A DNA stretch of 42,835 bases from Elusimicrobia bacterium RIFOXYA12_FULL_51_18 (GTDB lineage Bacteria; Elusimicrobiota; Elusimicrobia; Elusimicrobiales; UBA9959): NCBI GenBank assembly GCA_001800245.1, contig MGVA01000064.1, positions 1 to 42,835 of the forward strand. The letters are read 5' to 3'. The notes beneath the pieces were generated by a model, which saw nothing but the letters and a program-made list of their open reading frames with translations, ran no database searches and was not told the DNA's origin. Positions 3,607 through 19,054 of this stretch are shown here, in pieces. How positions within the stretch are numbered: position 1 is the stretch's first letter; each line of letters begins with the position of its first letter. A program made the translations under genes and the position numbers.

Positions 3607-3939
3607 ATGACCGGCAATAAATCCGAAAACCAACCAGCCACCAAGGGCGACGTAGCGCTTGTCAAAACGGAACTGAGGTCCGACATTAAGCGTTTGGAAG
3701 ACATCGTAAAGACCAACACCATAGACATATTACACATCAAAGACGATATTCGCGATATGCGGGAAACCATGGCCACAAAAAGCGACATAAACCGCATAAT
3801 GAACGCCGTCGACAGATTTGGCGCGGACGCCATAGCTTACCGCAACCAAGACACGCTGCGCGGCCAGGCCGTCATGGACCACACCGCAAAACTTTCCGAC
3901 CACGAGACCCGCATCCAGAAGCTGGAAACTACGAAATAA
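3607..3939 (+). CDS. Small predicted coiled-coil protein, unknown function
   Basis: A 110-residue, highly charged, soluble protein. It starts with a short polar tail, then has a long helix-forming stretch with heptad-like spacing of Leu/Ile/Val from about residue 15 to 75. A second helical segment (AKLSDHETRIQKLE) closes the protein. There is no signal peptide, membrane segment, cysteine or catalytic motif. The ATG has no clear Shine-Dalgarno site. I do not recognise the family; the shape resembles small coiled-coil adaptors. It sits between the synthase and a zinc-ribbon gene on the same strand, but the intervening structured DNA makes a shared operon uncertain. Confidence 0.6.
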   Translation: MTGNKSENQPATKGDVALVKTELRSDIKRLEDIVKTNTIDILHIKDDIRDMRETMATKSDINRIMNAVDRFGADAIAYRNQDTLRGQAVMDHTAKLSDHETRIQKLETTK

Positions 3940-4734: not shown

Positions 4735-4766
4735 GTGACTGGGCGGGTTATTAGGATGTATCGTCA

Positions 4767-4862
4767 AGGGTTTCCTACGCGGCGTAAGGGCAAAACCCTC
4801 GGCAGGCCCCCGACTGGGCATCTCGCGGCTCAATACCCAAAGCCAACCAGCCCGGCATTACA
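4767..4862 (-). repeat. Dispersed structured repeat, copy A
   Basis: The core cgactgggcatctcgcg (4811-4827) and the downstream octamer aaccagcc (4845-4852) recur at 41094-41110 and 41128-41135 with the same 34-base offset. It is flanked by a hairpin agggttt (4767-4773) / aaaccct (4793-4799) that encloses a second, one-bulge stem (4774-4780 / 4782-4789). The reverse-strand end (taatgccgggctggttg) also matches copy B at 39724-39740. The short frame across this element is not considered a gene. Confidence 0.75.
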
Positions 4863-4873
4863 CTTTAAGTTTA

Positions 4874-5539
4874 ATGAAAACAAACACTATTATAACCTTA
4901 GAAAACGAACTACGGCTTACGCTTATCCGTGCGGACGAAGTCCCGGAGCCTGGGACTTTTCTTTCGGCCGGCGAACTGGCAAAACTTGCTTCCTTAAAAA
5001 TTGAAAAACGGAGACGCGACTGGCTGGGGGGGAGATATGCCGCCAAAACCCTCCTCAAAGAATCTCTAGCATTAACAACCCAGCTTTCAGCTATAGAGAT
5101 ATCCTATGACTCCTTCGGAAGACCCGTTTGGACCGACCGGCTCATCTCCATAACCCACAGCGGCCCCTTCTGCGCCGCCGCCTGCGGACCGGCCCGCACG
5201 AAATTCCTGGGCATCGACATCGAAAAAGCCGAACCCCGCGCGGCCGCTTGGTATAAGGATTACTTCCATAAAAGCGAACTACCCTCCCACGACATGGAAG
5301 CCGCCACCCGCCTCTGGACGCAGAAAGAAGCCCTGCTCAAAGCCTTGGGACTAGGCCTCAAAGCCGACCCCCTGGACATAAAGCTGAGCGGCGACAAACC
5401 GGAATTCTCGCGCACCGCGCTCTCGCGTTATAAAGAACTGGGCAGCCCGGCCTTTACCCTGAACACCCTGACCCCCGGACCGGGCTATTATTTATCCGCT
5501 GCCTGCGAAAACTCCGGGACCGGGGCCTCCGAACAGTAA
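4874..5539 (+). CDS. 4'-phosphopantetheinyl transferase, Sfp type
   Basis: This enzyme moves the phosphopantetheine arm of CoA onto carrier proteins and would activate the synthase encoded upstream. Of 221 residues, the N-terminal half holds WLGGRYAAK (50-58) and SITHS (92-96). The metal-binding GIDIE is at 113-117 (Asp115, Glu117) and WTQKEALLKALG at 148-159. These are the standard Sfp/HetI-type motifs, and the length is normal. The ribosome site before the ATG is weak. The gene is separated from the synthase by two small genes and repeats, but the pairing with carrier domains supports the role. Since the window's carrier domains show Thr rather than Ser, its true target could be another carrier protein. 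Confidence 0.9.
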   Translation: MKTNTIITLENELRLTLIRADEVPEPGTFLSAGELAKLASLKIEKRRRDWLGGRYAAKTLLKESLALTTQLSAIEISYDSFGRPVWTDRLISITHSGPFCAAACGPARTKFLGIDIEKAEPRAAAWYKDYFHKSELPSHDMEAATRLWTQKEALLKALGLGLKADPLDIKLSGDKPEFSRTALSRYKELGSPAFTLNTLTPGPGYYLSAACENSGTGASEQ

Positions 5540-5579
5540 AAAACCGACAAACCGTTCCAAACTTGCTAAAATATTTAAG

Positions 5580-5595
5580 TACCTTTTTTAAGGTA
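5580..5595. other. Small hairpin in the PPTase-carboxyltransferase gap
   Basis: The stem tacctt (5580-5585) / aaggta (5590-5595) has a TTTT loop. An AT-rich stretch just upstream (around 5565-5579) could contain a -10 box. It has no T-tail, so it is a weak terminator candidate at most. Confidence 0.3.
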
Positions 5596-5662
5596 TCGGA
5601 CGCCGCCTCATAAAACCCGGCGGGTCCGCCCGCATTAAGCGGAGGCGACACCAGGAGGCCAC

Positions 5663-7297
5663 ATGGCGGATTTAATCAACGACCCGATAAGCGGCACCAG
5701 CATTCCCGAACCCGGCAAAAAAAGCCACCCGAAGAGGATCCGGGTAGTGCCTGATTCCCTCAAAAAATTTCGTGATATCACAGCCTTGGCGGCGGCCGGC
5801 GGACCGCCGGAAAAAATAGCGGCTCAGAAGAAAAAAGGCAAACTCACAGCCCGGGAGCGCATAAGCTACCTTGTGGACGAGGGCTCGTTCCAGGAGATAG
5901 GACTGCTGATGGAATCGCGTTGCACCGATTTCGGCATCAAAGACAAGCACATAAAAGGCGACGGCGTGGTAACCGGCTTCGCAAGAGTCAACGGCCGTCC
6001 CATAGCCCTCTTCTCTGAAGATTTTACGCAGTTGGGCGGGTCCCTGGGCCGCACGCACGCGGACAAGATAGCCAATATAATGGATATGGCCCTTGAAGCG
6101 CGTATGCCAGTTATAGGCATCCTGGACTCGGGCGGCGCCCGCATCCAGGAAGGCGTGGACAGCCTTGACGGCTACGGAGAGATCTTCTACCGCAACACCA
6201 AATCCTCCGGGATCATCCCGCAGATCTCCGTGATCGTAGGGCCATGCGCCGGCGGAGCGGTCTATTCTCCCGCGCTTACCGACTTCGTCTTCATGGTTAA
6301 GGGCATCAGCAATATGTTCGTCACCGGCCCGGAAGTGGTAAAAGCCGCTACCGGAGAGGAAGTGGATTTTGAAACCCTCGGCGGTTCCATGACCCACGCC
6401 TCCAAATCAGGCGTATGTCATTTCGTGGCCAATTCCGAACCGGATTGTTTCAGACAGCTCAAAGAGCTTATCAGTTTTCTGCCGCAGAGCCGCTACGAGG
6501 CCCCGCCGGCGCACGAGACAAAGGATCCGGTGGACCGCAAGATCCTGCTCCTGGAAAAACTCTGCGAAGTGGACCCGCGCAAACCATACCGCGTCCATCA
6601 CATCATCTGGTGGCTGTCGGACGACCACAGGTTCCTGGAAGTACACCATGATTTCGCCAAAAATATAGTCGTCGGTTTCATGCGGCTTGGCGGACAGACG
6701 GTGGGAGTGGTGGCCAACAACCCGGCGCACATGGCCGGAGCGCTGGATATAAACGCCAGCGACAAGGCCGCCCGCTTCATCAGGTTCCTGAACAACTTCA
6801 ACATCCCCATACTGACCCTGGTGGACGTGCCGGGCTACTGGCCCGGAGTGGCCCAGGAGCACGGCGGCATTATCCGCCACGGCGCAAAACTTCTTTACGC
6901 TTATTCCGAAGCCAGCGTCCCCAAAGTAACGCTGGTGCTCAGGAAGGCCTACGGCGGCGCATATATCGCCATGAGTTCCAAGTTTCTGCACGGCGACCTG
7001 AACTTCTCCCTGCCTTCGGCCGAAATAGCGGTCATGGGCCCGAGGGGCGCCATCGAGATCCTCTATTCCAGGCAGATCAAGGAAGCCAAGGATGAAGAAA
7101 GGGACGCCCTCAGGGTAAAACTGGCGAAAGAATATTCCGACAAGTTCGCTTCACCCTACCAGACTGCTTCTACCGGCTCCTTGGACGAAGTCATAGAACC
7201 GGCCACAGCCCGTCCGCGTCTTATAGAAGCGTTCCGGTTCCTGTCGAACAAACGCCGGCCCGGTACTCACGAGCGCACGGGGAACATACCGCTGTAA
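5663..7297 (+). CDS. Acyl-CoA carboxyltransferase (propionyl-CoA carboxylase beta-like)
   Basis: A 544-residue crotonase-fold carboxyltransferase of the PccB / methylmalonyl-CoA decarboxylase alpha family. It moves CO2 between biotin and an acyl-CoA. The N-terminal half has the acyl-CoA-binding loop DSGGARIQEG and FVTGPEVV; the C-terminal half has VDVPGYWPGVAQEHGG, then the Gly/Ala-rich RKAYGGAYIAM site. Length is normal with a slightly long N-terminus. A strong Shine-Dalgarno (aggagg) precedes the ATG. No biotin carboxylase, biotin carrier or decarboxylase membrane subunit lies in the window, so the direction is unclear. Next to the synthase and PPTase, it may supply malonyl- or methylmalonyl-type extender units; a role in propionate metabolism is the alternative. 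Confidence 0.9.
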   Translation: MADLINDPISGTSIPEPGKKSHPKRIRVVPDSLKKFRDITALAAAGGPPEKIAAQKKKGKLTARERISYLVDEGSFQEIGLLMESRCTDFGIKDKHIKGDGVVTGFARVNGRPIALFSEDFTQLGGSLGRTHADKIANIMDMALEARMPVIGILDSGGARIQEGVDSLDGYGEIFYRNTKSSGIIPQISVIVGPCAGGAVYSPALTDFVFMVKGISNMFVTGPEVVKAATGEEVDFETLGGSMTHASKSGVCHFVANSEPDCFRQLKELISFLPQSRYEAPPAHETKDPVDRKILLLEKLCEVDPRKPYRVHHIIWWLSDDHRFLEVHHDFAKNIVVGFMRLGGQTVGVVANNPAHMAGALDINASDKAARFIRFLNNFNIPILTLVDVPGYWPGVAQEHGGIIRHGAKLLYAYSEASVPKVTLVLRKAYGGAYIAMSSKFLHGDLNFSLPSAEIAVMGPRGAIEILYSRQIKEAKDEERDALRVKLAKEYSDKFASPYQTASTGSLDEVIEPATARPRLIEAFRFLSNKRRPGTHERTGNIPL

Positions 7298-7361
7298 CGC
7301 TATAAGTTCCGCTAATGGAATTTATTAGATATTTTTTATAAAGGAGATATTTTTATTTTTG

Positions 7362-7374
7362 TATAATAAAAAAT
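7362..7374 (+). promoter_or_regulatory. -10 box TATAAT, 7 nt before the hydrogenase operon start
   Basis: TATAAT at 7362-7367 is followed by only seven bases before the ATG at 7375. Transcription would start at or next to the ATG, giving a leaderless message. An AAGGAG sequence (7341-7346) lies 28 bases upstream of the ATG, too far to serve it. No strong -35 is visible. Confidence 0.5.
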
Positions 7375-8817
7375 ATGGATCTTGTAACTATACTTAAAAC
7401 CGCAGTAGCCGTACCGGTAATAGGCTCGCTTCTCATCCCCGTAGCCAATAAAATATCCGTCCAGGTCCGCAACGCTTACGCAGTCGCGCTGGGACTTGTG
7501 ACATTCGCCGCCGCCGCGTCATTGCTCCCGCACATGATGAACGGCGCCACGGCGACCTACGCCTTAAGCTTCCCGCTGGGCTTCGACTTTGTGTTGAACG
7601 CCGACCTGCTTTCGGTCTTTATGGCGGCTATCTCCTCGTTCGTCAGCGCCATCATCCTGATCTACTCGCTGGACTATATCTCCCATTACGAGAACCAAAC
7701 CGAATATTACACCATGGTGGTCCTGTTCCTCGGCTCCATGATGGGCCTGGTTTTTTCGGCCAATCTCCTGTGGATGTACATATTCTGGGAACTCACCGCC
7801 TTCGCCAGCTGGCGTTTGGTGGGCTTTTTCCGCTCCGACAGGGATGTGGCCAAAGCCAACAAGACCATCCTGGTCACGGTGTTCGGCGCGCTGTGCATGC
7901 TTATAGGCATCTTGATGGTCTACTTCGATCATGGCACTATGGACCTGCGCCTGTTGCGCGGCGAGACGATAACCACCGCGGCCGCGATGCTTATCTTAGT
8001 AGGCATCCTGGCTAAATCCGCCACTCTGCCGTTCTCCACCTGGCTGCCGGACGCCGGCGTAGCGCCCTCCACCGTAACCGCTCTGCTTCATGCCGCTGTG
8101 CTGGTCAAGATCGGAGTTTACGCTTACGCGCGCATTTTCGGGGTTACCTTTATGGTCTCCCCGGCTTTCTCGCATGGCGTGCTGATAATCGCGGGGTTAA
8201 GCGCCCTGGTCGCGGCCGGAGCGGCGCTTATAGATAAGGATATTAAGCGCATAATCGCCTACTCTACGGTGAGCCAGCTGGGGTTCATTTTCCTGGGACT
8301 AGCCTCGGGCAACAAAACCGCTTTCGTGGGCGGCCTTCTTTACATACTGATGCACAGCATCGCCAAGGGCGGTTTGTTCCTGTGCGCCGGCATAGTGGAA
8401 CAGAACACCCACAATAAGGATATAACCAAAATGGGCGGGTTGATCAAGACCATGCCGATCACGGCGGTCGCCTTTGCCCTGTGTTCATTATCCGTCATGG
8501 GCATCCCGCCTTTCGGCGGTTTTTTCAGCAAGTTCCTGGTTTTTAAAGGCGCCGCGCAGCACGGCAGTATTCTAGTGCTTATTATTTTCCTGGCCGGCGC
8601 GATGATGACGCTATTATACCTTGTGCGCCTTTTCTACCTGGTGTTCCTGGGAGAAGACAAGGCGTCCAATCCCAGGGAGGGCTCCGCCACCATGGTGGGG
8701 AGCGTTCTGGCCCTGGCTCTCATCGGCCTGGCGCTGGGCGCGTTCATCTATTATCCGTCCCTTTACGTTGACATGCTCACCACGCAATTAGGAGTGGGCC
8801 TGGAAACTATTCAATAA
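7375..8817 (+). CDS. Antiporter-like membrane subunit 1 of complex I-like hydrogenase (NuoL/M type)
   Basis: A 480-residue polytopic protein of the proton-conducting transporter family (NuoL/NuoM/NuoN, MrpA/MrpD). It has about 14 membrane helices. The ion-path residues expected for the family are present: Glu139 in IFWE, Lys214 in ILAKSATLPF (followed by STWLPDA), His239 and Lys245 in ALLHAAVLVKIG, and a later HSIAKGG. It therefore looks able to move protons or sodium. It lacks the long C-terminal lateral helix of NuoL. It is first in the eleven-gene hydrogenase operon, and its promoter implies leaderless translation. It could equally be called a NuoM-type subunit. Confidence 0.9.
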   Translation: MDLVTILKTAVAVPVIGSLLIPVANKISVQVRNAYAVALGLVTFAAAASLLPHMMNGATATYALSFPLGFDFVLNADLLSVFMAAISSFVSAIILIYSLDYISHYENQTEYYTMVVLFLGSMMGLVFSANLLWMYIFWELTAFASWRLVGFFRSDRDVAKANKTILVTVFGALCMLIGILMVYFDHGTMDLRLLRGETITTAAAMLILVGILAKSATLPFSTWLPDAGVAPSTVTALLHAAVLVKIGVYAYARIFGVTFMVSPAFSHGVLIIAGLSALVAAGAALIDKDIKRIIAYSTVSQLGFIFLGLASGNKTAFVGGLLYILMHSIAKGGLFLCAGIVEQNTHNKDITKMGGLIKTMPITAVAFALCSLSVMGIPPFGGFFSKFLVFKGAAQHGSILVLIIFLAGAMMTLLYLVRLFYLVFLGEDKASNPREGSATMVGSVLALALIGLALGAFIYYPSLYVDMLTTQLGVGLETIQ

Positions 8818-8907
8818 AAGGCCGTTTTGGAATACAATACTTTCGTAAGTGCCGTATCAAGCGCGGTGTGCCGCAGACGGCCAATTCAATAAGAAGGTCA
8901 ACCTCTA
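8818..8907 (+). other. Intra-operon gap with hairpins and a possible internal promoter
   Basis: This is the only sizeable gap in the hydrogenase operon (90 bp). It contains ggccgt (8820-8825) / acggcc (8877-8882), enclosing a gcgg/ccgc stem (8863-8866, 8871-8874). A TACAAT-like -10 lies near 8833-8838. It could be an mRNA processing or stability site or an internal promoter. Confidence 0.35.
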
Positions 8908-10776
8908 ATGAACCCAATACTTATCCCCGTCATCCTGCCCATCGCGGCGGCTCTTCTGGTCCTTCTGATATCGGAAAAGACCAGGTATCTTAAAGAACTG
9001 CTGGCCATCGCCGTTTCCGGCGTCGCCCTGATCAGCGCCTTTCCCGTTATCAGCCAGGCGCTTTTCGGGACCTGCATGGAATTCAGCGCCCGATGGGCCG
9101 GCTACGGCATCGATTTCACGCTTAAAGCCGACAAGCTGAGTTCTTTCATCTTGCTGGGCGTGACGTTCTTCGCTTTTGTCGTCTCGATCTACTCTTTCAG
9201 CTTTGAGAAAAAAGGCAGCGCCAAGTGGTTCTATTTTAACCTGCTTCTAACGCAAGCCTTCTCCGCCGGAGCGGCGCTGGCGGACAATCTGGTGGCCATG
9301 CTTTTCTTCTGGGAAGGCCTTTTGATCTTCCTCTACGCCTTCATTGCCCTTTCCAAGCCGGACCAAAGCGCGAAGAGGACGGCGATGAAAGCTTTCCTGA
9401 TCAACGCCGTTACGGACCTGGCCATGCTGGCCGGCATCTGCATCACCGGCTATATAGCCGGCACTTTCAGCATGACCGGCATCGCCGCCAACAAGCTCAC
9501 GCTTAACGGGTGGGCGGCGTTAGGCTACGTGCTGATGCTTATCGGCGCGGTTTCAAAGGCCGGGGCACTCCCGTTCCATACCTGGATACCCGATGCGGCC
9601 GTTGACTCCAATGCGCCGTTCATGTCCTTTATTCCGGCGGCTCTGGACAAGCTTCTGGGCATCTATTTCCTGACCCGCATCAGCGTTTACCTGTTCTCGC
9701 TGAACGGCGTTGCGCAGCTAGGCCTGATGACGCTGGGCGCCCTGACCCTCCTGATCGCGGTCATGATGGCTTTCGTCCAGACGGACTATAAGCGCCTGCT
9801 GGCCTATCACTCCGTCAGCCAGGCTGGCTACATGATCCTCGGCATCGGCACGCTGAACCCCATCGGTATCGCCGGCGGCCTCTTCCACATGGTTAACAAT
9901 GCCGTTTACAAATCCTGCCTGTTCATGACGGCCGGCTCCGTGGAGCGCCAGACCGGGTCCAACGACCTTTCGAAGCTGGGAGGCCTTTTCGGCGCCATGC
10001 CGCTGACCGCCATCTGCTATATCATAGCGGCCGCGGCCATCTCGGGTATCGCTCCGCTGAACGGCTTTTTCTCCAAAGAAATGATCTACACGGGCGCGCT
10101 CAACACCGGCTACAAATGGTTTTTCATAGCGGCGGAGGTCGGCTCCGTATTGACGCTCGCCTCTTTCCTGAAGCTGGGACATTCGGTCTTTTTCGGCAAG
10201 CGCCCTGAAGCGCTCAAGGACACCCGCGAAGCTCCGTTCTCAACGCTTCTGCCGATGATAATACTCGCGGGCGTATGCGTGGCGTTCGGTTTCGGCGCCA
10301 AGCTGCCCATAGATTACCTGATAGAGCCTTCGCTGCAGAACCTGGGCCTCTCGCATGAGGAAGTTCTGGCGGGCTTCCATTTCAACAAACTCTTCTGGGC
10401 CTCCATTGTCGTTATTCTGGTGGCGCTGATCAACCATATGTTCGGCCTCGCGGCGGGCAAAGGCGCGCCCAGCAAAGCCTCCGATCACATCCACTACGCG
10501 CCCGCCTTAAAAGAGATCTACTCTATGGCGGAGGCCCGCGTGTTCGACCCCTACGAACAGCTGATGAAACGCGTGCCATCGGCGGCCGGGCTTCTGTATA
10601 AAGTGGACAGGTTCTTGGACTACCTGACCGACGACCTCCCTTCTTTCGCCGTCAACGCCTTCTCCAAGACCTCGCAGCGCTTTCATACCGGCTCTTACCC
10701 GCTTTATATGGCTCTGACCATAGCCGGGTTCGTAGTTTTTATACTGCTCACCGCAACTTACGGAGGAATTAAATGA
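8908..10776 (+). CDS. Antiporter-like membrane subunit 2 of complex I-like hydrogenase (NuoL type)
   Basis: This 622-residue protein is the longest of the three antiporter-like subunits. It shows Glu136 in FFWEG, Lys217 in GAVSKAGALPFHTW (followed by IPDA), and a later HMVNNAVYKSCLF segment, all typical of ion-conducting NuoL/MrpA members. The C-terminal extension after about residue 500 contains an amphipathic stretch (ALKEIYSMAEARVFDPYEQL) and a last membrane helix. This resembles the region of NuoL that carries the lateral helix linking the membrane arm. A Shine-Dalgarno (aagaagg) precedes the ATG. Its last four bases overlap the next start (ATGA), implying translational coupling. Confidence 0.9.
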   Translation: MNPILIPVILPIAAALLVLLISEKTRYLKELLAIAVSGVALISAFPVISQALFGTCMEFSARWAGYGIDFTLKADKLSSFILLGVTFFAFVVSIYSFSFEKKGSAKWFYFNLLLTQAFSAGAALADNLVAMLFFWEGLLIFLYAFIALSKPDQSAKRTAMKAFLINAVTDLAMLAGICITGYIAGTFSMTGIAANKLTLNGWAALGYVLMLIGAVSKAGALPFHTWIPDAAVDSNAPFMSFIPAALDKLLGIYFLTRISVYLFSLNGVAQLGLMTLGALTLLIAVMMAFVQTDYKRLLAYHSVSQAGYMILGIGTLNPIGIAGGLFHMVNNAVYKSCLFMTAGSVERQTGSNDLSKLGGLFGAMPLTAICYIIAAAAISGIAPLNGFFSKEMIYTGALNTGYKWFFIAAEVGSVLTLASFLKLGHSVFFGKRPEALKDTREAPFSTLLPMIILAGVCVAFGFGAKLPIDYLIEPSLQNLGLSHEEVLAGFHFNKLFWASIVVILVALINHMFGLAAGKGAPSKASDHIHYAPALKEIYSMAEARVFDPYEQLMKRVPSAAGLLYKVDRFLDYLTDDLPSFAVNAFSKTSQRFHTGSYPLYMALTIAGFVVFILLTATYGGIK

Positions 10777-12209
10777 CCACGAGCCTCCTGGCTTATCTGC
10801 TCATCCCTCTTTTCACGGCGATATTGATACCTTTCGCCGCGAAGACCCGGCGCAAACTGGCCGATGTCCTGGCAAACGTCACGCTGCTGGCCGGCCTCCT
10901 CAACATCAGTTTCATCCTGTTCAACCCGGCAAACATAGCCCTCTCCTTCTCCAATATCACCGAGGACGGTTTCGCGCTGCTGATGATCTTCATCATCTAT
11001 CTAGTGGCGCTGTGCGTTACTTTCTTCTCGTCTTATTTTATCGGGGACGATTCGAAGGTCAACCGCGTACCCTACTATTCGCTGATCATGACTTCGGTTT
11101 CTGCGATGTGCGGCATCGTCACCACCGGCGACTTTTTTACGCTGTACATCTTCGTGGAAGTGCTGGCGGTCACCTCATTCGCCCTGATAGCCTCCGATGA
11201 GAGCGGCAAAGGGCTGGAAGGCGCCATAAAATATTTCCTGCTCACCTTCCCGGCATCGCTGTTCATTCTGTTCGGCATCGCCTTCCTGATGCTTACCGCC
11301 GGCACCTTCTCCTTTGAGAGCATTAAGATCATCATCGCCTCCGGAATACCGGCCGGCGCGGTGGTTTTCTCGCTCTCCTTGATTCTGCTGGGCTTCCTGA
11401 TTAAATCCGGCGTGGCGCCTTTTCACGCCTGGACGCCCGACGCTTATGAAGGGGCTTATGCGCCGGTATCGGCTTATCTGGCCGGCATCGTTACCAAGAT
11501 CTCCGGCGTATATGCGGTTATAAAAATTTCCATAATGTTGCGCCTCTTTGAGATCAAGGCCTATCACACCGCCGAAATCCTGATGTTCCTCGGCATGCTG
11601 TCCATAGCCATAGGCGCCCTGGCGGCCCTGCGGCAGAAAGAATTAAAGAGAATGCTGGCCTTCTCCAGTATAAGCCAGATCGGATACATCATTCTGGCGG
11701 CGGGCATGGGAACTCCGTTGGCGATCCTCGGCGCCATCTTCCACCTGGTAAACCATGCGACTTTCAAGACCGTCCTGTTCCTCAACAGTGCCAGCCTTGA
11801 GAAAGGCGCCGGCACCAGCGACATGCGCAAGTTGGGCGGCATGGAACACGCCATGCCCTGGACCTCCTGGACCTCCATCGTTGCGCTCCTGGCCACGGCC
11901 GGCGTACCGCCGCTTTCCGGCTTCTGGAGCAAACTTATCATCATAATAGCCCTGTGGGACGGGGGGGCGAAAACCTATGCGGTACTGGCGCTATTGTTCA
12001 GCGTAGTCACGCTGGCGTACTTCATGGTGATGCAGAAAAAGATCTTCTTCGGGAACCCCACGGAAGCTTCACGGAACGCGCGCGAGGTCAGGCCCGCCAT
12101 GCTGGCTCCGGTCGTTGTCATGTGCCTGCTCATAGCGGCGCTGGGCGTCTTCTTCCCGTATATTTACTCCTACCTGGTTGAAACTATCGCGGCGAGGATC
12201 ATATTATGA
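10773..12209 (+). CDS. Antiporter-like membrane subunit 3 of complex I-like hydrogenase (NuoN/MrpD type)
   Basis: 478 residues, about 14 membrane helices. Family residues include Glu129 in YIFVEV, Lys211 in FLIKSGVAPFHAW (followed by TPDAYEGAYAPV), and a later HLVNHATFKTVLF. The PDAYEGA(Y)APV wording is closest to NuoN/MrpD members. With the two preceding genes this gives the three-antiporter membrane arm known from complex I. The start overlaps the previous stop by four bases and has a good ggagg site; the stop overlaps the next start in the same way. Confidence 0.88.
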   Translation: MTTSLLAYLLIPLFTAILIPFAAKTRRKLADVLANVTLLAGLLNISFILFNPANIALSFSNITEDGFALLMIFIIYLVALCVTFFSSYFIGDDSKVNRVPYYSLIMTSVSAMCGIVTTGDFFTLYIFVEVLAVTSFALIASDESGKGLEGAIKYFLLTFPASLFILFGIAFLMLTAGTFSFESIKIIIASGIPAGAVVFSLSLILLGFLIKSGVAPFHAWTPDAYEGAYAPVSAYLAGIVTKISGVYAVIKISIMLRLFEIKAYHTAEILMFLGMLSIAIGALAALRQKELKRMLAFSSISQIGYIILAAGMGTPLAILGAIFHLVNHATFKTVLFLNSASLEKGAGTSDMRKLGGMEHAMPWTSWTSIVALLATAGVPPLSGFWSKLIIIIALWDGGAKTYAVLALLFSVVTLAYFMVMQKKIFFGNPTEASRNAREVRPAMLAPVVVMCLLIAALGVFFPYIYSYLVETIAARIIL

Positions 12210-12694
12210 CCTATCACACACTGCTGTTAATACTGGTCGCCGCGGCGGCGGTAGCCGCCGTGATGGCAAGAAATCTCCTGTTGAGCGCCATAATGCTGGC
12301 CCTGGTCAGCGTAGGAGCGTCCCTCGTTTTATTCGATTTCCAGGCTCCCTGGGCCGCGGTTTTCGAATTGTCGGTCTGCGCCGGCCTGATCACCGTGCTG
12401 TTCGTAAGCGCCGTCAGCCTTATCCGCCACGAGGAAAGCAAAGTCGCGGAAAACCGGGCACGCTTTTACGCCATGCCGCTGGTAATGGGCATAGTGGCTA
12501 TCGCCGCCTGGTTCTACGCCGTGCCGTACTTTGAATCCCTGGAAGACTGGGCGCGTTTAGGCGGCCGCGCCAACACCCTGGGCACGGTCATATGGGATAT
12601 AAGACGTTTCGACCTGTTGGGCCAGGTCTCCATTCTGGCCGCCGGGGTCTTCGTGGTCAATTCGATGTTCCCCAGGAGAAAAAAACAAAAATGA
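12206..12694 (+). CDS. NuoJ-like membrane subunit
   Basis: 162 residues with about five hydrophobic helices. The segment FELSVCAGLITVLFVSAVSL (about residues 53-72) corresponds to the conserved third helix of NuoJ, which in complex I carries a pi-bulge and takes part in coupling. The C-terminus is basic. It overlaps both neighbours by ATGA, as expected for a coupled J-K pair. Similar subunits exist in multi-subunit hydrogenases and Mrp antiporters, but the position before a K-like gene supports NuoJ-like. Confidence 0.8.
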   Translation: MTYHTLLLILVAAAAVAAVMARNLLLSAIMLALVSVGASLVLFDFQAPWAAVFELSVCAGLITVLFVSAVSLIRHEESKVAENRARFYAMPLVMGIVAIAAWFYAVPYFESLEDWARLGGRANTLGTVIWDIRRFDLLGQVSILAAGVFVVNSMFPRRKKQK

Positions 12695-12999
12695 TAAATT
12701 CCTTCTCGATGGACTGGTATTTCATCACCCTGATATTTTTTGCCGGCATGTATTGCATGCTCGTTTCCCGCAATCTGCTGAGACAATTCATAGGCCTTGA
12801 GATCATGTCTAAATCTTGTCTGCTGGGAGTGATCTCGGTCGGAGCGAAGACCGGGAACCTGGCGCTCGCCCAGGCCCTTATCATCACCATGATCGTGATC
12901 GAAGTCGTGGTGGTTGCCGCGGGTCTGTCGCTGCTGGTCAAGAACTACCGGATCACCAATTCGGTGGACATCTGGTCGCTTAACAATCTGAGAGGATAA
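12691..12999 (+). CDS. NuoK-like membrane subunit
   Basis: 102 residues, three membrane helices. The start is taken at 12691 because it forms an ATGA overlap with the previous gene and has an aggag site; the longer upstream frame would run inside that gene. The sequence contains FIGLEIMSKS and IITMIVIEVVVVA, each with an intramembrane Glu. NuoK/MrpC family members use two such glutamates in the central hydrophilic axis. It ends in a short soluble tail. Confidence 0.88.
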   Translation: MINSFSMDWYFITLIFFAGMYCMLVSRNLLRQFIGLEIMSKSCLLGVISVGAKTGNLALAQALIITMIVIEVVVVAAGLSLLVKNYRITNSVDIWSLNNLRG

Positions 13000-13003
13000 A
13001 ATC

Positions 13004-13339
13004 ATGGACATTCTCCTTTTTCCGCCGGTAGTTTTCATCATCTCGCTCCTGTTCGCGATGTGCCTCTCCGGGTTCGTTTCGGGCTGGGCTCCGGCGCCCA
13101 AGGCCGAAGCCGGTTCCGGCAGGGACAAACCCTACGCCTGCGGCGAGGACATTCCGGCCGAAAAAATGATCCCCGACTATCAGGAATTTTTTCCGTTCGC
13201 CATCTTTTTCACCCTGCTGCACGTGGCGGGCCTGATGCTCGCCACCTGGAGCCTAAACCCGCTTTCCGCGGGCCTTGAGATGGTGGTGGGCTATGTGGCA
13301 GCGGTAGCGGTAATACTTGCAATCTTGTTCGTGGGATAA
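13004..13339 (+). CDS. NuoA-like membrane subunit
   Basis: 111 residues, three helices: one N-terminal, then a soluble loop with KPYACGED, then two more. The PYxCG loop Cys is the hallmark of NuoA, where the loop sits near the quinone/Ni-Fe-derived site and changes conformation. The following EFFPFAIFFTLLHVAGLML matches the second NuoA helix. A NuoA homologue is expected in complex I and Fpo-type enzymes and, to my knowledge, is not clearly seen in most group 4 hydrogenases, so its presence beside a Ni-Fe-binding large subunit is notable. The start has a good gagagga site, four bases after the previous stop. Confidence 0.85.
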   Translation: MDILLFPPVVFIISLLFAMCLSGFVSGWAPAPKAEAGSGRDKPYACGEDIPAEKMIPDYQEFFPFAIFFTLLHVAGLMLATWSLNPLSAGLEMVVGYVAAVAVILAILFVG

Positions 13340-13343
13340 AGAC

Positions 13344-13784
13344 ATGAAAATCAAAGATAAGCTCATCCTCTGGTCCAGACTCAAATCGCCATGGCTGCTG
13401 CACTTCAACAGCGGGGCATGCAACGGCTGCGATATCGAGGTAGTGGACGCCCTGACTCCAAGGTACGACCTGGAACGTTTCGGCGTAGTCCTGAAGTCCA
13501 CCCCCAGGCACGCGGACATTCTGGTGATCAGCGGCCCGGTTACGCGCCAGCAGGTCAAACGCCTTAAGAGGATCTACGACCAGATGCCGGCGCCCAAATT
13601 CGTTATGGCGGTCGGAGCCTGCGCCTGTTCCGGCGGCGTTTTCGACGGCTGTTACAGCGTGGTTTCCGGAGTGGACAAGGTCCTTCCCGTTTCCATTTAT
13701 ATACCGGGCTGCCCCGCCCGGCCCGAAGCAATCCTGGACGGCGCAGTGAAGCTTCTTGGAGCCCTCGAAGCGAGTTCGAAGTAG
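13344..13784 (+). CDS. Group 4 [NiFe] hydrogenase small subunit / NuoB-like
   Basis: 146 residues. The start is set at 13344, five bases after the previous stop; the longer frame overlaps that gene. It holds one proximal [4Fe-4S] cluster: CNGC (Cys26, Cys29), a central ACACSGG (Cys93/95) and PGC at Cys123. The CxxC...C...C pattern and the wording GACNGCDIE are typical of group 4 hydrogenase small subunits and their NuoB relatives. It should pass electrons between the ferredoxin-like subunit and the Ni-Fe site. It has no signal peptide, so it is cytoplasmic. Confidence 0.92.
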   Translation: MKIKDKLILWSRLKSPWLLHFNSGACNGCDIEVVDALTPRYDLERFGVVLKSTPRHADILVISGPVTRQQVKRLKRIYDQMPAPKFVMAVGACACSGGVFDGCYSVVSGVDKVLPVSIYIPGCPARPEAILDGAVKLLGALEASSK

Positions 13785-13804
13785 CGGCTAAAAAAGAGGA
13801 AATT

Positions 13805-14302
13805 ATGAGCGAATTTGAAAAAGAAGAAAAATTAAAAGCGCAGTTGGAAGACAAGTTTGGCGGCGCCATCTCCGACATGATCATACAGCGCAAGGACCGC
13901 GTCTGGTTCGAGATCAAGGCGGAACAGCTGGTCGAACTCATGAACTTCATGAAAACCGGGATGGGCTTCAACCGCGTGTCCACCATCACCGGCGTGGACG
14001 AGGGGGAGAAGCTCGGCGCCTTCTACCACCTGACGGACGAGAACGGCATCGTAACCGTGCGGGCCAAAACTCCCAGGACGGATCCGCATCTGCCCACCAT
14101 AACAGGGGTGTTCCCCGGGGCCGAGCCCTACGAACGCGAACTCGCGGACATGTTCGGCATAAAAATAGACGGTCTGAAGCCCGGGCGCCGCTATCCCCTG
14201 CCCGACGATTTTCCTACCGACCAGTACCCGTTGAGGAAAGACTGGAAGGTAGGCGACGCCTACCCCGAAGAGAAGACGTCGCCCGCTACGGAGGCCAAAT
14301 AA
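13805..14302 (+). CDS. NuoC-like subunit of complex I-like hydrogenase
   Basis: 165 residues, soluble. The C-terminal half carries the 30-kDa subunit signature: PGAEPYERELADMFGI, then LKPGRRYPLPDD and PLRKDW. The charged N-terminus is typical for the stand-alone form. NuoC braces the large and small subunits of the peripheral arm. It is a separate gene here, not fused to the large subunit. A clear gagga site precedes the ATG, 20 bases after the previous stop. Confidence 0.9.
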   Translation: MSEFEKEEKLKAQLEDKFGGAISDMIIQRKDRVWFEIKAEQLVELMNFMKTGMGFNRVSTITGVDEGEKLGAFYHLTDENGIVTVRAKTPRTDPHLPTITGVFPGAEPYERELADMFGIKIDGLKPGRRYPLPDDFPTDQYPLRKDWKVGDAYPEEKTSPATEAK

Positions 14303-14303
14303 T

Positions 14304-15497
14304 ATGACCAAGATGACGATCCCCCTCGGTCCCCAGCATCCCGCGCTTAAAGAGCCGGTCAACTTCTCGCTCGTCCTCGAAGGAGAACAGATAACCGGCT
14401 CAACGGTAAACCTTGGCTACAATCACCGCGGCATTGAGAAGGCGGCCGAGAGCAGGACCTACCTGCAGGACATCTACCTCCTGGAACGCGTATGCGGGAT
14501 CTGTTCGCACTCCCACACCACCTGCTACCTCACCTGCGTGGAAGAAATAGCCAAGGCCGAAGTCCCCGAGAGGGCTAAAGCCATCAGGACCATCGTCGCG
14601 GAACTGGAAAGGATACACAGCCACCTGCTATGGCTGGGGATCGCCGGCTACGAGATGGGCTTTGAAACTCTTTTCATGTACAGCTGGCGCGACCGCGAGC
14701 AGGTCCTGGACTGCCTGGAGCTGGTCTCCGGCAACCGCGTACACTACGCCATGAACACTATAGGCGGCGTACGCCGCGACATCACGCCGGAACAGAAGAC
14801 CGAGATCCTCAGAAGGGTCTCAATTCTGGAAGAACGCACCAAATATTACATCAAGCTGGGCACGGAAGAAGCCACCGTGCTGGCCCGCACCCAGAACGTG
14901 GGCCTGCTGCCGCACGACGTAGCGATGAACCTGGGCACGATCGGGCCGACGGGAAGGGCTTCCGGCATAAAGTGCGACGTCCGCAAGCACGAACCTTACC
15001 TACTCTACGGCAAGCTGGATTTCAAGGAAATAACGCACGACACCAACGACGTCTTCGGGCGCCTGGTGGTGCGCGTGCTGGAACTGGTAGAGTCCTACAA
15101 GATCATCCGACAGGTCCTGAACTACCTGCCCGACGGCCCGATAGCCGTGAAGGTGCCCGCCAAGATAGGTCCCGGCGAAGCCACCAACCGCTATGAGGCG
15201 CCCCGCGGCGAGGATATCCATTACGTGAAGGCCAACGGCACCGACAAGCCAGAGCGCGTGAAAGTGCGTGCCCCCACCATGGCCAACTACGTTGCCGTGC
15301 CCTATATGCTCAACAGCGGCTACCTAGCCGACGCGCCGATGACCATAGCGGCCATAGACCCCTGCATGTCCTGCACGGACAGGGCGATGGTATATGACAC
15401 TAAAAAGAACAAGGTCCGGATATACGGTTGGGACGACCTGCGCAAATTAGGCATCGAGCACTATAAGAAAAGAGGCGTTGATTTTTCAAAGCTGTAG
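14304..15497 (+). CDS. Group 4 [NiFe] hydrogenase large subunit / NuoD-like, Ni-Fe ligands intact
   Basis: 397 residues. The N-terminal L1 motif ERVCGICSHSH supplies Cys64 and Cys67. The C-terminal DPCMSCTDR supplies Cys354 and Cys357. All four cysteine ligands of the Ni-Fe centre are therefore present, unlike in true complex I NuoD, where they are lost. DPCxxCTDR is the group 4 form. About 40 residues follow the last Cys, so I see no sign of the usual His-ended tail removed by a maturation protease. The enzyme should make or use H2 while coupled to the ion-pumping membrane arm. No hyp maturation genes lie in the window. The start follows the previous stop by one base. Confidence 0.95.
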   Translation: MTKMTIPLGPQHPALKEPVNFSLVLEGEQITGSTVNLGYNHRGIEKAAESRTYLQDIYLLERVCGICSHSHTTCYLTCVEEIAKAEVPERAKAIRTIVAELERIHSHLLWLGIAGYEMGFETLFMYSWRDREQVLDCLELVSGNRVHYAMNTIGGVRRDITPEQKTEILRRVSILEERTKYYIKLGTEEATVLARTQNVGLLPHDVAMNLGTIGPTGRASGIKCDVRKHEPYLLYGKLDFKEITHDTNDVFGRLVVRVLELVESYKIIRQVLNYLPDGPIAVKVPAKIGPGEATNRYEAPRGEDIHYVKANGTDKPERVKVRAPTMANYVAVPYMLNSGYLADAPMTIAAIDPCMSCTDRAMVYDTKKNKVRIYGWDDLRKLGIEHYKKRGVDFSKL

Positions 15498-15526
15498 ATT
15501 TCTATCTTAATCGAAAGGTTGGACAT

Positions 15527-16477
15527 ATGACCATTGACTCGACACTGCCCGCGCTGACGTACATCCTGGTCTTTCCGGGGTTCACGTTCCTGGCGGTATA
15601 CGGATTCTTTCTCCAATGGTTCGACAGGAAGCTGTCGGCCGTCATGCAGAACCGCGTGGGCCCGCCCTGGTACCAGGCGCTGGCGGATTTCATCAAGCTG
15701 CTGGCTAAGGAAGTCATAGTCCCCGAGGTGTGCGACACCGTGATGTTCAAGGTCCTGCCGTATTTCGCCATGGCGGCCGTCATGACCTCGGTGTTCATGC
15801 TGCCCGTCTGGACCGACGCGCTATACGCCTTCCAGGGCGACCTGATAGTCGTCATCTACCTGCTGACCATACCCACGGTGACATTCTTCCTGGCCGGCTG
15901 GAGTTCCACCAGCCCCTACGCCACCATAGGCGCCATGCGCGTCCTGACGCAGCTCTTCGCCTACGAAGTACCGCTGATGCTCGCGCTCATCGGCCCCGCG
16001 ATACTGGCCGGCACCTGGAATATCAGTGAGATAGCTGGCTTCTTCACCAACAACAAACTCTACATGCTGGCCCAGATCCCCGGGCTTATCATAGCGCTGC
16101 TCGCCCTGCAGGGCAAGCTCGAGCGGGTGCCGTTCGACATCCCGCACGCCAAGAACGAGATAGTAGGCGGACAGTTCACCGAATACTCCGGCCGGCTCCT
16201 GGCGTTCTTCTACCTGGCCATAGACATGGAAATGGTGGTAGGTGTCGCGTTGGTTAACGCCGTTTTCCTGGGCGGGACGCTCGGCACCGCCGGCCTGCTC
16301 GGCATGGCCGTGTTCCTCGCCAAGACCATGGCAATAGTGTTCCTGCTGACCCTGGTAAAGGTCGCCATGGGCCGCGTGCGCATAGACCAGATGGTCAGGG
16401 GCTGCTGGCAGATACTGGCGCCCCTGTGCCTGGCCCAGATATTGTTCGACATCTTTCTTAAGTTCAAATTAGGATAA
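15527..16477 (+). CDS. NuoH-like membrane anchor subunit
   Basis: 316 residues, about eight helices. Family signatures are DRKLSAVMQNRVGPPWYQAL near residues 29-48 and, later, LERVPFDIPHAKNEIVGGQF then TEYSG. In complex I the second motif usually reads DLPEAExEL; here two acidic positions are replaced (HAKNE), which fits hydrogenase-type members and a site that does not handle quinone. The subunit links the peripheral arm to the antiporter-like subunits. An aaagg site precedes the ATG. Confidence 0.9.
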   Translation: MTIDSTLPALTYILVFPGFTFLAVYGFFLQWFDRKLSAVMQNRVGPPWYQALADFIKLLAKEVIVPEVCDTVMFKVLPYFAMAAVMTSVFMLPVWTDALYAFQGDLIVVIYLLTIPTVTFFLAGWSSTSPYATIGAMRVLTQLFAYEVPLMLALIGPAILAGTWNISEIAGFFTNNKLYMLAQIPGLIIALLALQGKLERVPFDIPHAKNEIVGGQFTEYSGRLLAFFYLAIDMEMVVGVALVNAVFLGGTLGTAGLLGMAVFLAKTMAIVFLLTLVKVAMGRVRIDQMVRGCWQILAPLCLAQILFDIFLKFKLG

Positions 16478-16481
16478 CGCT

Positions 16482-16883
16482 ATGAAAAAACCCGGCAGAG
16501 TTTTAGGTGAAATGCTCGAGAACCTTTTTGCCAAAAAGGCCACCTCCAATTACCCGTTCACAAAGGCCGTGGTGGACGCCCGTTACCGCGGACGCATCGC
16601 CTTTGAGTCCGATAAGTGCATCGGCTGCAAAATGTGCGTACGAGCGTGCCCGTCCAAGGCCATAGAAATACCGCTTTCGGCCGAACAGCCGGCTGCGGCG
16701 CCGATACCGGAAGGGTCCGCCCCGGTTCCGGCAAAAAAGAAATTCGACTGCATCATGAGCCTGGACCGCTGCATTTACTGCTCGCAGTGCGTGGATGTAT
16801 GCCCCAAAAAGGCTCTCATCTCCACAACGGACTTTGAGCTGGCGCACACGGACAGGAAGCTCCTCAGGCTTCATTACAAATAG
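16482..16883 (+). CDS. NuoI-like 2x[4Fe-4S] ferredoxin subunit
   Basis: 133 residues with two CxxCxxCxxxC motifs: Cys46/49/52/56 and Cys97/100/103/107. These hold two [4Fe-4S] clusters that would accept electrons from reduced ferredoxin and feed the small subunit. A Pro/Ala-rich insert (about residues 65-85) separates the motifs, longer than in typical NuoI. It is the last gene of the operon. The gap after it contains an imperfect GC-rich inverted repeat (16903-16908 / 16949-16954, ccccgg/ccgggg) that may help end transcription, without a T-run. Confidence 0.92.
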   Translation: MKKPGRVLGEMLENLFAKKATSNYPFTKAVVDARYRGRIAFESDKCIGCKMCVRACPSKAIEIPLSAEQPAAAPIPEGSAPVPAKKKFDCIMSLDRCIYCSQCVDVCPKKALISTTDFELAHTDRKLLRLHYK

Positions 16884-16971
16884 CCCGCCAGACATATCCC
16901 GGCCCCGGCAAAGCCCCCTATCCCGCCAGTTATTGGCTTGAGGCGGAACCGGGGTTTATGCGTTTGTGCCA

Positions 16972-17877
16972 ATGAAAATCAAAGATTCCGTAATCTGCCT
17001 GACAGATCTATGCAACTACAGGTGCATTTTTTGTTCGCGCTGGGGCACGCATTGCGCGAACACCCCCGCCACGGTTAAAAAAATAATAAAATTGTTTCCC
17101 GATGATGTGTGCTTCGAAGGCGGAGAACCCATGCTTGCCCCGGACCTTGAAAAATGGGTGGCTTTCGCAAAAGCCGAACATGTTAAAGACATCATTCTGG
17201 TAACCAACGGCTTCGGACTTGGCAAACCGGCCTTAGTCGAAAAAATGCTCAAGGCCGGGGTGACCATGTTTAATGTCAACTTTCCGGCGCATGAGCAAAA
17301 GCTTTTTGATCTGCTCACACAGAGAAAAGGTAATTTCAAAAAAACCGTAAGAACCATTAAAACCCTGATAAAAACCGCGGGGCCGGCAAAAGTCAGGCTG
17401 ACTCTGGTGGCCAACGACGTAATCATCAGATATATTGAAGATTATGCAGGATTTTTGGTGAGGAATTTCCCGGGGCTATCCTATCTTGAGATCAACATGG
17501 TGAAGGTGCTTGGCGCTGTCAGGAAAAGAACCTGGCTGGTGCCCAGGCTTACGGAGCTGAAACCTTATCTGCTGAAAGCTTTTTATCTTTTAGAACAGAA
17601 AAAGGTTTGTTTCATAACCGACGGTTTCCCGTTGTGCATTATGGAAGGCTTCGAGGACCATGCGATAGACACCAGATTTCTGATAAGCTACGGCAGGCCG
17701 GCCACACAGGAAAAGCGCCATGCCGGACCATGCCGGCTCTGCACGTTTAATAAAATATGTCCCGGCCCAAGAAGAGATTATCTCCGGATTCATGGTTTCT
17801 CCGGACTCAAGCCCTCCGCAAAGGATCCCGCGGCCATAATAGAAACCACCCGTAAAAGATGGCTCTCCGCGCCATAG
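16972..17877 (+). CDS. Radical SAM protein with C-terminal Cys cluster
   Basis: 301 residues from the ATG at 16972; a GTG six bases upstream is an alternative start. The CxxxCxxC motif (Cys14, Cys18, Cys21) binds the SAM-cleaving [4Fe-4S] cluster, followed by FEGGEPML, the GGE-type SAM-binding motif. The C-terminal CRLC...C stretch (GPCRLCTFNKICPGPRR) suggests a SPASM/twitch-like extra cluster. Such proteins modify peptides or other substrates, but no substrate peptide or partner is visible. It is separated from the hydrogenase operon by 82 bp and has lower GC and more AAA codons, so it is probably independent. Confidence 0.8.
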   Translation: MKIKDSVICLTDLCNYRCIFCSRWGTHCANTPATVKKIIKLFPDDVCFEGGEPMLAPDLEKWVAFAKAEHVKDIILVTNGFGLGKPALVEKMLKAGVTMFNVNFPAHEQKLFDLLTQRKGNFKKTVRTIKTLIKTAGPAKVRLTLVANDVIIRYIEDYAGFLVRNFPGLSYLEINMVKVLGAVRKRTWLVPRLTELKPYLLKAFYLLEQKKVCFITDGFPLCIMEGFEDHAIDTRFLISYGRPATQEKRHAGPCRLCTFNKICPGPRRDYLRIHGFSGLKPSAKDPAAIIETTRKRWLSAP

Positions 17878-17945
17878 CGAGCTTCGCGTTAAGCGATGTA
17901 AATCAACCACGCTGTATGGGGCTGTTCAAAGCGGGTGTATTTTTT

Positions 17946-17958
17946 TATAATTATTCAT
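17946..17958 (+). promoter_or_regulatory. -10 box TATAAT, 7 nt before the MscS start
   Basis: TATAAT (17946-17951) is separated by seven bases from the ATG at 17959, the same spacing as at 7362. A weak -35 (TGTTCA, 17923-17928) lies 17 bases upstream. No Shine-Dalgarno occurs in the 20 bases before the ATG. This argues for the ATG at 17959 rather than the GTG at 17935. Confidence 0.5.
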
Positions 17959-19020
17959 ATGGTTATAGATGCCCCTTCTATCTTAACAACTCAATTCCTG
18001 GATAATACCGTTTTAGGCTATCTCTGCTCCGCCGTTACGTTCGCCGCCGCGCTGGCCGCCCTTTATGTCCTCAAACACATAGTATTCGCAAGGCTCCGCG
18101 CCATAGCCTCCGGTACCGAAACGGACCTGGACGACCTGGCGATGGACCTCATCCAGAAGATCCGGCCGCTTGAATATAATCTGCTGGCGTTATACCTCGC
18201 CATACGGACCTTGAACCGCTCGCCGGGCTTCGGGCGCGCCGCCAACATACTCCTGCTCATAGTTTTCACCTACCGGGCCGTCACTATGGTCCAGCATCTT
18301 CTAAACTACTGGACGAACAAGATAGTCTCCCAACGGGGTCTGACGGAAGCCGCCAAAGCGTCGGTCGTACACAGTACGCAGGTGATCCTGCGCGCGATAC
18401 TCTGGGTGGCGGCGGTTCTTTTCATACTCGGAAATCTCGGAGTGAACGTGTCGGCGGTCCTTACCGGCCTGGGAATAGGCGGCGTAGCGGTAGCCCTGGC
18501 GGCCCAGGCCATACTTGGAGACCTTTTCAATTTTTTTGTGATCCTGCTGGACAAGCCGTTTAACATAGGCGATTTCGTTGTCTCCGACTCCGTGTCCGGG
18601 ACTATAGAACACATAGGTTTAAAATCCACCCGTATCCGCAGCATTTCAGGAGAGATGATAGTGGTGTCAAACTCCAATCTGCTGTCCTCCAGAATAAGAA
18701 ATTATAAAGATCTCAATAAGCGCCGGGTGGTTTTCAAGACCGGCGTGGTTTACGGGACCGGCGCGGAAAAGCTCCGCAAAGTACCGGCACTGATAAAAGC
18801 GGTGGTTCTCGGCCAGGACGGCACCGAATTTGAGCGGTCCAACCTGTATAACACCGGGGATTTTTCCGTGGATTTTGAAACGGTATATTACATCACCAGC
18901 GGGGATTATACGCTCTACATGAACACGCAGGAACGTATTTTGCTGGGGATCATAGAGGGGTTTGCCGGGGAAGGAATAGAATTCGCTTATCCGACCCAGA
19001 CGCTTTTCATCAATCGATGA
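17959..19020 (+). CDS. MscS-family mechanosensitive channel
   Basis: 353 residues from the ATG. About four N-terminal membrane helices precede the pore-lining helix (NVSAVLTGLGIGGVAVALAA), rich in Gly/Ala as in MscS TM3. Next come GDLFNFFVILLDKPFNIGD and the beta domain with VSGTIEHIGLKSTRIRS and VVSNSNLL, both family signatures. It releases solutes on osmotic downshock in the inner membrane. There is no extra ligand-binding domain; length fits the YnaI/small-plus class. It lies 34 bases before the parvulin gene on the same strand. Confidence 0.92.
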   Translation: MVIDAPSILTTQFLDNTVLGYLCSAVTFAAALAALYVLKHIVFARLRAIASGTETDLDDLAMDLIQKIRPLEYNLLALYLAIRTLNRSPGFGRAANILLLIVFTYRAVTMVQHLLNYWTNKIVSQRGLTEAAKASVVHSTQVILRAILWVAAVLFILGNLGVNVSAVLTGLGIGGVAVALAAQAILGDLFNFFVILLDKPFNIGDFVVSDSVSGTIEHIGLKSTRIRSISGEMIVVSNSNLLSSRIRNYKDLNKRRVVFKTGVVYGTGAEKLRKVPALIKAVVLGQDGTEFERSNLYNTGDFSVDFETVYYITSGDYTLYMNTQERILLGIIEGFAGEGIEFAYPTQTLFINR

Positions 19021-19054
19021 AATATATTATCAGAGATCAGAAGAGGAGAATAAA

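Follow-up and report, generated by a model that had tools for sequence, protein, structure and literature searches.

The origin of complex I from membrane hydrogenases is usually argued from the Mbh hydrogenase and from archaeal metagenome-assembled genomes (MAGs). Mbh has a single large antiporter subunit, devoid of a lateral helix, together with a sodium module. The subunits of this module are named MbhABCF (PMC7886697), and MbhI, of the same complex, has been matched with ND3 (PMC10396290). In 2021, Hfo, an Fpo-like [NiFe] hydrogenase of eleven subunits, was reported from Bathy-6 and placed in subgroup 4g-6, with Hfo-like clusters in Pyrodictium delaneyi and Ca. Methanomethylicus (PMC7886697). 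A complex I-like group 4 hydrogenase of Asgard archaea, with a lateral helix and two antiporters, was reported in 2024 (PMC11291895). Here, we analyse an operon of eleven genes found at positions 7375-16883 on contig C64 (MGVA01000064.1) of an Elusimicrobiota MAG, Elusimicrobia bacterium RIFOXYA12_FULL_51_18 (2.75 Mb, 69 contigs, about 90% complete). The whole stretch of this contig that was analysed, 42,835 nucleotides, is called the window below. Judged by its sequence, the operon is a group 4 energy-converting [NiFe] hydrogenase; it includes a NuoA-like subunit. We conclude that it is a widespread bacterial variant of the energy-converting hydrogenase, and not a one-off intermediate.

Homologues from Elusimicrobiales have been placed near group 4g enzymes (PMC11257099), and the passages available on group 4g enzymes of Elusimicrobiales, Omnitrophota and rumen bacteria mention them without a NuoA subunit. 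We found no description of the bacterial NuoA-bearing cluster as a class in the open-access literature, a coverage outside which most subscription journals lie.

Results

The operon compared with described systems

All eleven genes are on the + strand, overlapping by 4 bases or separated by short gaps, in the order L1-L2-N-J-K-A-B-C-D-H-I (LLN-JK-ABCDHI), where L1, L2 and N are antiporter-like. The original prediction, made from the letters alone, of an eleven-gene operon with J, K, A, B, C, D, H, I and three antiporters was borne out by Pfam and by the coordinates, every subunit class claimed being assigned by Pfam to the eleven proteins.

Hfo, compared here by description and not by sequence, has the same eleven subunit classes, keeps the Ni-Fe motifs, has no N module and presumably couples ferredoxin and H2; as described, it differs in being archaeal and in its Fpo/Nuo gene order. 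With the Asgard hydrogenase, the Ni-Fe module of which is Mbh-like, the operon shares a NuoL-like subunit with a lateral helix, but two antiporters are reported there against three antiporter-like subunits here, and the text searched makes no mention of NuoA. Mbh of Pyrococcus furiosus (group 4d; PDB 6cfw) provides the best PDB relatives of D, B and N, whereas its sodium module is absent here and its single, long row does not share the clade of our enzyme. Complex I and the 11-subunit Nuo/Fpo-like enzymes have in common with the operon the order of the ABCDHI block, J, K, three antiporter subunits and the lateral helix (predicted here). Unlike them, the operon keeps the Ni-Fe ligands, the hydrogenase CxxC and a glutamate of D, Glu17, and its NuoA is devoid of the acidic pair. 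No NuoE, NuoF or NuoG gene was found in the operon; the one PF01512 match of the genome is on contig C40, next to a [FeFe]-hydrogenase-like open reading frame (ORF).

The same phylum also contains Mrp-type hydrogenases (L057-L066, L070-L073), with a hydrogenase module, J, K and antiporters, and D subunits 43-47% identical to ours. Their order is different, HBCD-L-J-K-N-I, and no A was found in them. In L064 (bases 5712-19142), Pfam recognised MnhB, MNHE, MrpF and MnhG, without NuoA; L064 also has, upstream, a flavin/NAD-binding reductase-like gene and a 4Fe-4S gene. A hydrogenase type of Saganbacteria with Mrp and asrA/asrB genes, as it is described, is comparable to the Mrp type (PMC6349859).

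The hydrogenase module

The large subunit D (14304..15497, + strand, 397 aa; Pfam Complex1_49kDa and NiFeSe_Hases) carries both Ni-Fe motifs, CGIC (within CGICSHSH) at 64-67 and DPCMSC (within DPCMSCTDR) at 352-357, that is, the two CxxC pairs which had been put forward as setting it apart from complex I. Its best PDB match is MbhL (E 2.4e-92), and its nearest named relatives are from Elusimicrobiales and Elusimicrobia MAGs, at 83-85% identity. Glu17 aligns with Glu21 of MbhL, a position where Nqo4 has His; MbhL Glu21 is a proposed proton donor to the Ni-Fe site (PMC11228991). Past the second motif, D has a C-terminal tail of 37 residues, five of which (W377, I385, Y388, G392 and D394, P0106 numbering) were invariant in an alignment of 8 diverse D. 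Such conservation fits an extension removed by a HycI-type protease; HypD and two HycI-type proteases are encoded in the genome. The small subunit B (13344..13784, + strand, 146 aa; Pfam Oxidored_q6), with MbhJ as best PDB match, carries the hydrogenase CxxC, as CNGC, where the complex I chains compared show a CC pair.

The features that define group 4 energy-converting [NiFe] hydrogenases are thus present: the cysteine motifs termed L1 and L2, a small subunit with CxxC, and NuoH with antiporter-like subunits. Neither the traits of complex I (a large subunit without Ni-Fe cysteines, a His at the quinone head-group site) nor the loss of Ni-Fe ligands that marks Ehr was found in D.

A NuoA-like subunit without the acidic pair

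Subunit A (13004..13339, + strand, 111 aa) matched Pfam PF00507 (Oxidored_q4) at 28.4 bits, for a curated cut-off of 23.3. The score is weak but above the cut-off, PDB matches are ND3/NuoA chains, and the NuoA identity first proposed for this protein is upheld. NCBIfam gave no NuoA match for A, and no second PF00507 match was found in the genome. Typical letters of A are PYACGED in the loop and EFFPFAIFFTLLHVAGLMLAT in helix 2. In the A of the window, helix 2 has His and Ala at the places of the Asp and Glu of complex I (E. coli Asp79 and Glu81). We aligned 119 rows, 2 of them complex I (L069 and L074); some genomes are present twice, and the rows are not independent. In the 117 hydrogenase rows, the Asp79 position was occupied by His in 114, Asp in 2 and Glu in 1, and the Glu81 position was never acidic (0/117): the acidic pair of NuoA is missing from hydrogenase A. 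The loop Cys was found in 111 rows (Gly in 5, Ser in 1); the loci with Gly are L055, L056, L129, L141 and L143.

Hydrogenase A and canonical NuoA are separated by a branch of 99 in the Shimodaira-Hasegawa-like approximate likelihood ratio test (SH-aLRT; 43 against 13 rows, about 119 columns). With a profile built from hydrogenase A, the median score was 106 bits for hydrogenase A sequences and 20 for canonical NuoA; with a canonical NuoA profile, scores were 176 bits for the 12 rows used to build it and 19 for hydrogenase A. The structure model of A is of modest quality. All 13 matches found with it by Foldseek were complex I/NDH chains of ND3-like length, every E-value being greater than 1, so that these matches prove little alone. 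The 17 PDB sequences that the NuoA profile matched do not include MbhI, a result without bearing on the fold of MbhI. The statement that most group 4 hydrogenases lack a clear NuoA therefore stands at best by sequence, as MbhI is equated with ND3 in structural papers. An explanation of the NuoA ORF by chance or mis-annotation was rejected in view of the Pfam match, the conservation among relatives and, with little weight, the structure model.

Distribution

The original prediction had held the combination of subunits to be unusual, and had proposed a survey of the gene order. D was searched in 340 genomes of the phylum; at E <= 1e-40, matches, some of them complex I-like, were obtained in 188. 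Among the matches listed, D proteins of at least 54% identity occur at at least 76 places in at least 75 genomes. We examined 42 of these 76 places, the window included: A was present in 42/42 and the full order LLN-JK-ABCDHI in 38, to which L081 adds the same order with an extra J/K call. The remaining ones are L040, on a 3.3 kb contig, and L055 (G327) and L056 (G326), where JK is at the front. Another 20 loci of the phylum consisted of 2 complex I operons and 18 loci without A (15 with the Mrp-type order, some of them cut, 2 Hyc/Hyf-like and 1 Ehr-like). The full cluster is present in an isolate, Elusimicrobium minutum Pei191: protein P0093, named for this strain, is exactly the one encoded in L039.

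A scan of species genomes, for which the best 80 loci are considered, yielded an A gene in 75. The full pattern was found in 57 of these, ABCDH with an incomplete or odd upstream part, mostly at contig ends, in 16, and an odd order in 2. In L143 and L171, an apparent "B before A" order was produced by the use of stop-to-stop ORFs. Four of the 5 loci without A are cut by a contig edge (L121, L134, L151 and L161), and L173 is a real exception. In L173 (bases 1392-3462), B, C and D stand alone between pilin-like genes, with the Ni-Fe motifs of D intact and no A or H nearby; a small gene pair resembling a HEPN/nucleotidyltransferase pair is also among the neighbours. According to record titles, the A-bearing loci belong to 14 phylum-level groups: Elusimicrobiota, Omnitrophota, Bacillota, Planctomycetota, Margulisbacteria with WOR-1, Myxococcota, Bacteroidota, Verrucomicrobiota, Kiritimatiellota, Spirochaetota, Bipolaricaulota, Actinomycetota, Riflebacteria and Pseudomonadota. 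Groups represented by one MAG may be binning errors. Since 75/80 related loci carry A, the combination is not unusual; it is moreover complete in E. minutum, and has a precedent in Hfo.

Phylogeny

In the tree of D, the 65 A-bearing rows form one clade (SH-aLRT 99), and A-bearing enzymes are one clade in three trees. The deep order was not settled by the D-only tree, which contains the Ehr row L035 (branch length 10). A tree of B, D and H with 56 rows recovered A-hydrogenases (98/98), Nuo (100/100), the Mrp type (100/100) and Hyc/Hyf (100/97), and separated A-hydrogenases plus Nuo from the rest with 97/85. In a 45-row tree, Mbh was included, and the rows left out, in part because of long branches, were 8 of the A clade, 1 of the Mrp type and, for Nuo, L186, L193 and L198 (E. 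coli); this split was then at 92/86, below firm support. Hyc/Hyf and Mbh rows are few and long, and Ech, Eha/Ehb, CooH, Fpo and Hfo are in none of the trees. By the approximately unbiased (AU) test, grouping A-hydrogenases with Mbh alone was rejected (p-AU 0.008), and with the Mrp type alone weakly rejected (0.032). Speaking against a firm placement, Nuo beside the Mrp type was not rejected (0.221). Among the groups sampled, the A-hydrogenase clade adjoins Nuo, a position that is favoured, not firm. The proposal of an intermediate between membrane hydrogenases and complex I is likewise favoured, by the 92/86 split and the rejection of Mbh alone, but unproven because Nuo beside the Mrp type was not rejected.

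The membrane arm and the transported ion

The three antiporter-like subunits are L1 (7375..8817, + strand, 480 aa; Pfam Proton_antipo_M and _N), which is NuoL/NuoM-like without the C-terminal arm, the NuoL-like L2 (8908..10776, + strand, 622 aa; Pfam) and the NuoN/MbhH-like N (10773..12209, + strand, 478 aa; Pfam; best PDB sequence match MbhH, 6cfw_H). The roles of the key residues of antiporters are established. Inspection of the alignments by eye showed the Glu of transmembrane helix 5 (TM5) and the Lys of TM7, TM8 and TM12 in all three proteins, and in L1 also a TM8 His, aligned to NuoL. In the A-bearing loci of Elusimicrobiota, these four residues, in the same order, are kept in 41, 41, 36 and 39 of 41 L1, 36, 38, 37 and 34 of 39 L2, and 40, 40, 39 and 40 of 40 N. 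Both membrane glutamates are present in K (12691..12999, + strand, 102 aa; Pfam Oxidored_q2), as in 108/108 K rows from NuoA-bearing loci.

The AlphaFold2 (AF2) model of L2 (predicted local distance difference test, pLDDT, 89.6; predicted template modelling score, pTM, 0.86) has a helix at 548-592 followed by an anchor helix at 597-617. Foldseek returned MrpA chains as best matches and NuoL-type chains next, over about 640 columns (641, TM-score 0.82 with 8e9g_L); with MbhH, the alignment spans 491 columns only. From this helix and this span, a NuoL-type lateral helix is predicted for L2.

The operon has no spare ORFs for MrpB/E/F/G-like subunits, and no match to Rnf was found in the genome, from a MAG about 90% complete. 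The ATP synthase c subunit of this genome appears to lack the sodium-site residues known from Ilyobacter. These three observations together suggest that the transported ion is likely H+.

Other subunits and neighbouring genes

The other subunits, all on the + strand, are J (12206..12694, 162 aa, NuoJ-like; Pfam Oxidored_q3, 41.2 bits), C (13805..14302, 165 aa, NuoC-like; Pfam Complex1_30kDa), H (15527..16477, 316 aa, NuoH-like; Pfam NADHdh and PDB matches) and I (16482..16883, 133 aa), a NuoI-like ferredoxin with two 4Fe-4S motifs in two stretches matching Pfam Fer4 families. J scored 26.4 bits with Pfam MbhD, slightly under the cut-off of 27.2, and I scored under the cut-offs of the NuoI-type models of NCBIfam. 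Promoter-like and terminator-like patterns (9 and 20 in the operon region, for shuffled means of 5.2 and 11.1) were not used; many are within genes or on the opposite strand.

Just upstream of the operon (3-7297, + strand) are a partial PfaA/ketoreductase-like ORF, a phosphopantetheinyl transferase-like gene and a carboxyltransferase like methylmalonyl-CoA decarboxylase alpha (match under cut-off). Directly downstream is a radical SAM protein gene (16966-17877, + strand; best weak match HxsC4/HxsC). Further on, a run of genes on the - strand (20028-36403) includes DUF6754, a glycosyltransferase, two B12-binding radical SAM proteins, two epimerases, membrane mannosyltransferase-like, weakly RnfC_N-like and MutL/GlmL-like genes, and several without Pfam match.

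Elsewhere in the genome, contig C7 contains a second D-like gene in a block L-H-(K-like)-N-D-B (L035, bases 2684-10051); the 508 aa product of this gene lacks the Ni-Fe cysteine motifs and fits an Ehr/Hyf-like complex. On contig C40 (L180, bases 485-3516), NuoE-like, NuoF-like and [FeFe]-hydrogenase-like ORFs are consecutive, the last being cut at the locus end. The trimeric group A3 HydABC is said, in a 2024 paper, to be absent outside Endomicrobiaceae within the phylum.

Discussion

From these sequences, we consider it likely that the operon encodes a complex I-like hydrogenase passing electrons from ferredoxin to H2 with proton pumping. Electrons would enter at I, through its two 4Fe-4S clusters, and reach the Ni-Fe site of D by the cluster of B, with Glu17 of D at the place of the proposed proton donor of MbhL. 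By analogy with work on Mbh and complex I, the redox signal would then be relayed through loops of subunits D, A, H and B, first to J and K and from there to the antiporter-like N, L1 and L2. Catalysis may be reversible. The related, smaller Ech of T. kivui is described, in purified form, as pumping H+ during ferredoxin-driven H2 formation (PMC9356269), and three POR matches in the genome are candidate sources of reduced ferredoxin. For ferredoxin at -500 mV, the transfer of two electrons yields 172 meV at 1 bar H2, 409 meV at 10 Pa and 468 meV at 1 Pa, which at a proton motive force (pmf) of 150 mV corresponds to about 1.1, 2.7 and 3.1 H+; for ferredoxin at -420 mV, the values are 12, 249 and 308 meV. 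At low H2, the energy would thus cover roughly 1-3 H+ per H2 at this pmf.

Several points weigh against this interpretation. Three pump modules are many for so small a driving force, which is the most pointed puzzle that the enzyme poses, and HydDB labels group 4g as having an "undetermined role". A key residue is missing in some relatives, as for the TM8 Lys of L1 (36/41) or the TM12 Lys of L2 (34/39). The absence of Rnf or complex I genes may reflect gaps in a MAG that is about 90% complete.

The small driving force also bears on the direction of flow. For the Hfo of Bathyarchaeia, Loh and others propose that the pmf drives electrons from H2 to ferredoxin (PMC7886697), and if our complex ran mainly in this reverse direction, its three pump modules would be a strong ram; the forward driving force is small at high H2 (12 to 172 meV at 1 bar). 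Against this, the genome has three POR loci to provide reduced ferredoxin and no Rnf match that would consume it, and E. minutum is a glucose fermenter that makes H2; we regard a mainly reverse flow as unlikely. Far less probable still is a quinone-reducing, complex I-like enzyme that has kept the cysteines without a working Ni-Fe site. The subunit set is that of the 11-subunit complex I-like enzymes, but all four cysteines, the CxxC of B and the hydrogenase Glu are kept, maturation genes are present, and the complex I-like D subunits examined in Elusimicrobiota have neither motif.

The likeness to complex I would say nothing about origin if an ordinary Mbh-like hydrogenase had acquired its NuoA late, from a complex I operon. 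Within the phylum, Mrp-type hydrogenases are without A, and a donor is at hand, as a NuoA-bearing hydrogenase and a complex I-like operon of 11 genes occur together in several Elusimicrobiota genomes (G245, G326 and G333). Yet hydrogenase A is separated from canonical NuoA by the SH-aLRT 99 branch, A accompanies the hydrogenase over many phyla in enzymes that form one clade, and in mbh, MbhI, the ND3 counterpart, likewise precedes the small subunit. Such a late acquisition appears improbable to us. Returning to an enzyme inherited with its NuoA, a more speculative step is that this bacteria-wide class, still making H2 while keeping the complete membrane arm of complex I (NuoA, three antiporter subunits and the lateral helix), is the hydrogenase lineage nearest Nuo, the eleven-subunit machine having been complete before the quinone reductase. 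Complex I would then have arisen by loss of the Ni-Fe ligands, replacement of the catalytic Glu by His and gain of the acidic pair of NuoA. We put this forward tentatively, as a possibility that we would not favour at present.

The eleven-subunit archaeal Hfo, the Asgard lateral-helix hydrogenase and MbhI as the ND3 counterpart in Mbh were already known. What appears to be new is the bacterial class, as one clade with its own gene order LLN-JK-ABCDHI, unlike Hfo, and within it a NuoA without the acidic pair, three antiporters with intact key residues and a predicted lateral helix. The cluster may identify the enzyme behind some of the group 4g annotations described as "functionally unresolved". 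In sheep rumen, group 4g is reported among the hydrogenases with the highest RNA/DNA ratio (PMC6776011), which does not imply kinship to the present clade.

This is a common bacterial cluster with all core subunit classes of complex I minus the NADH module. Its presence in the isolate E. minutum allows experiments on assembly, on the stoichiometry of pumping and on what a NuoA lacking the acidic pair does.

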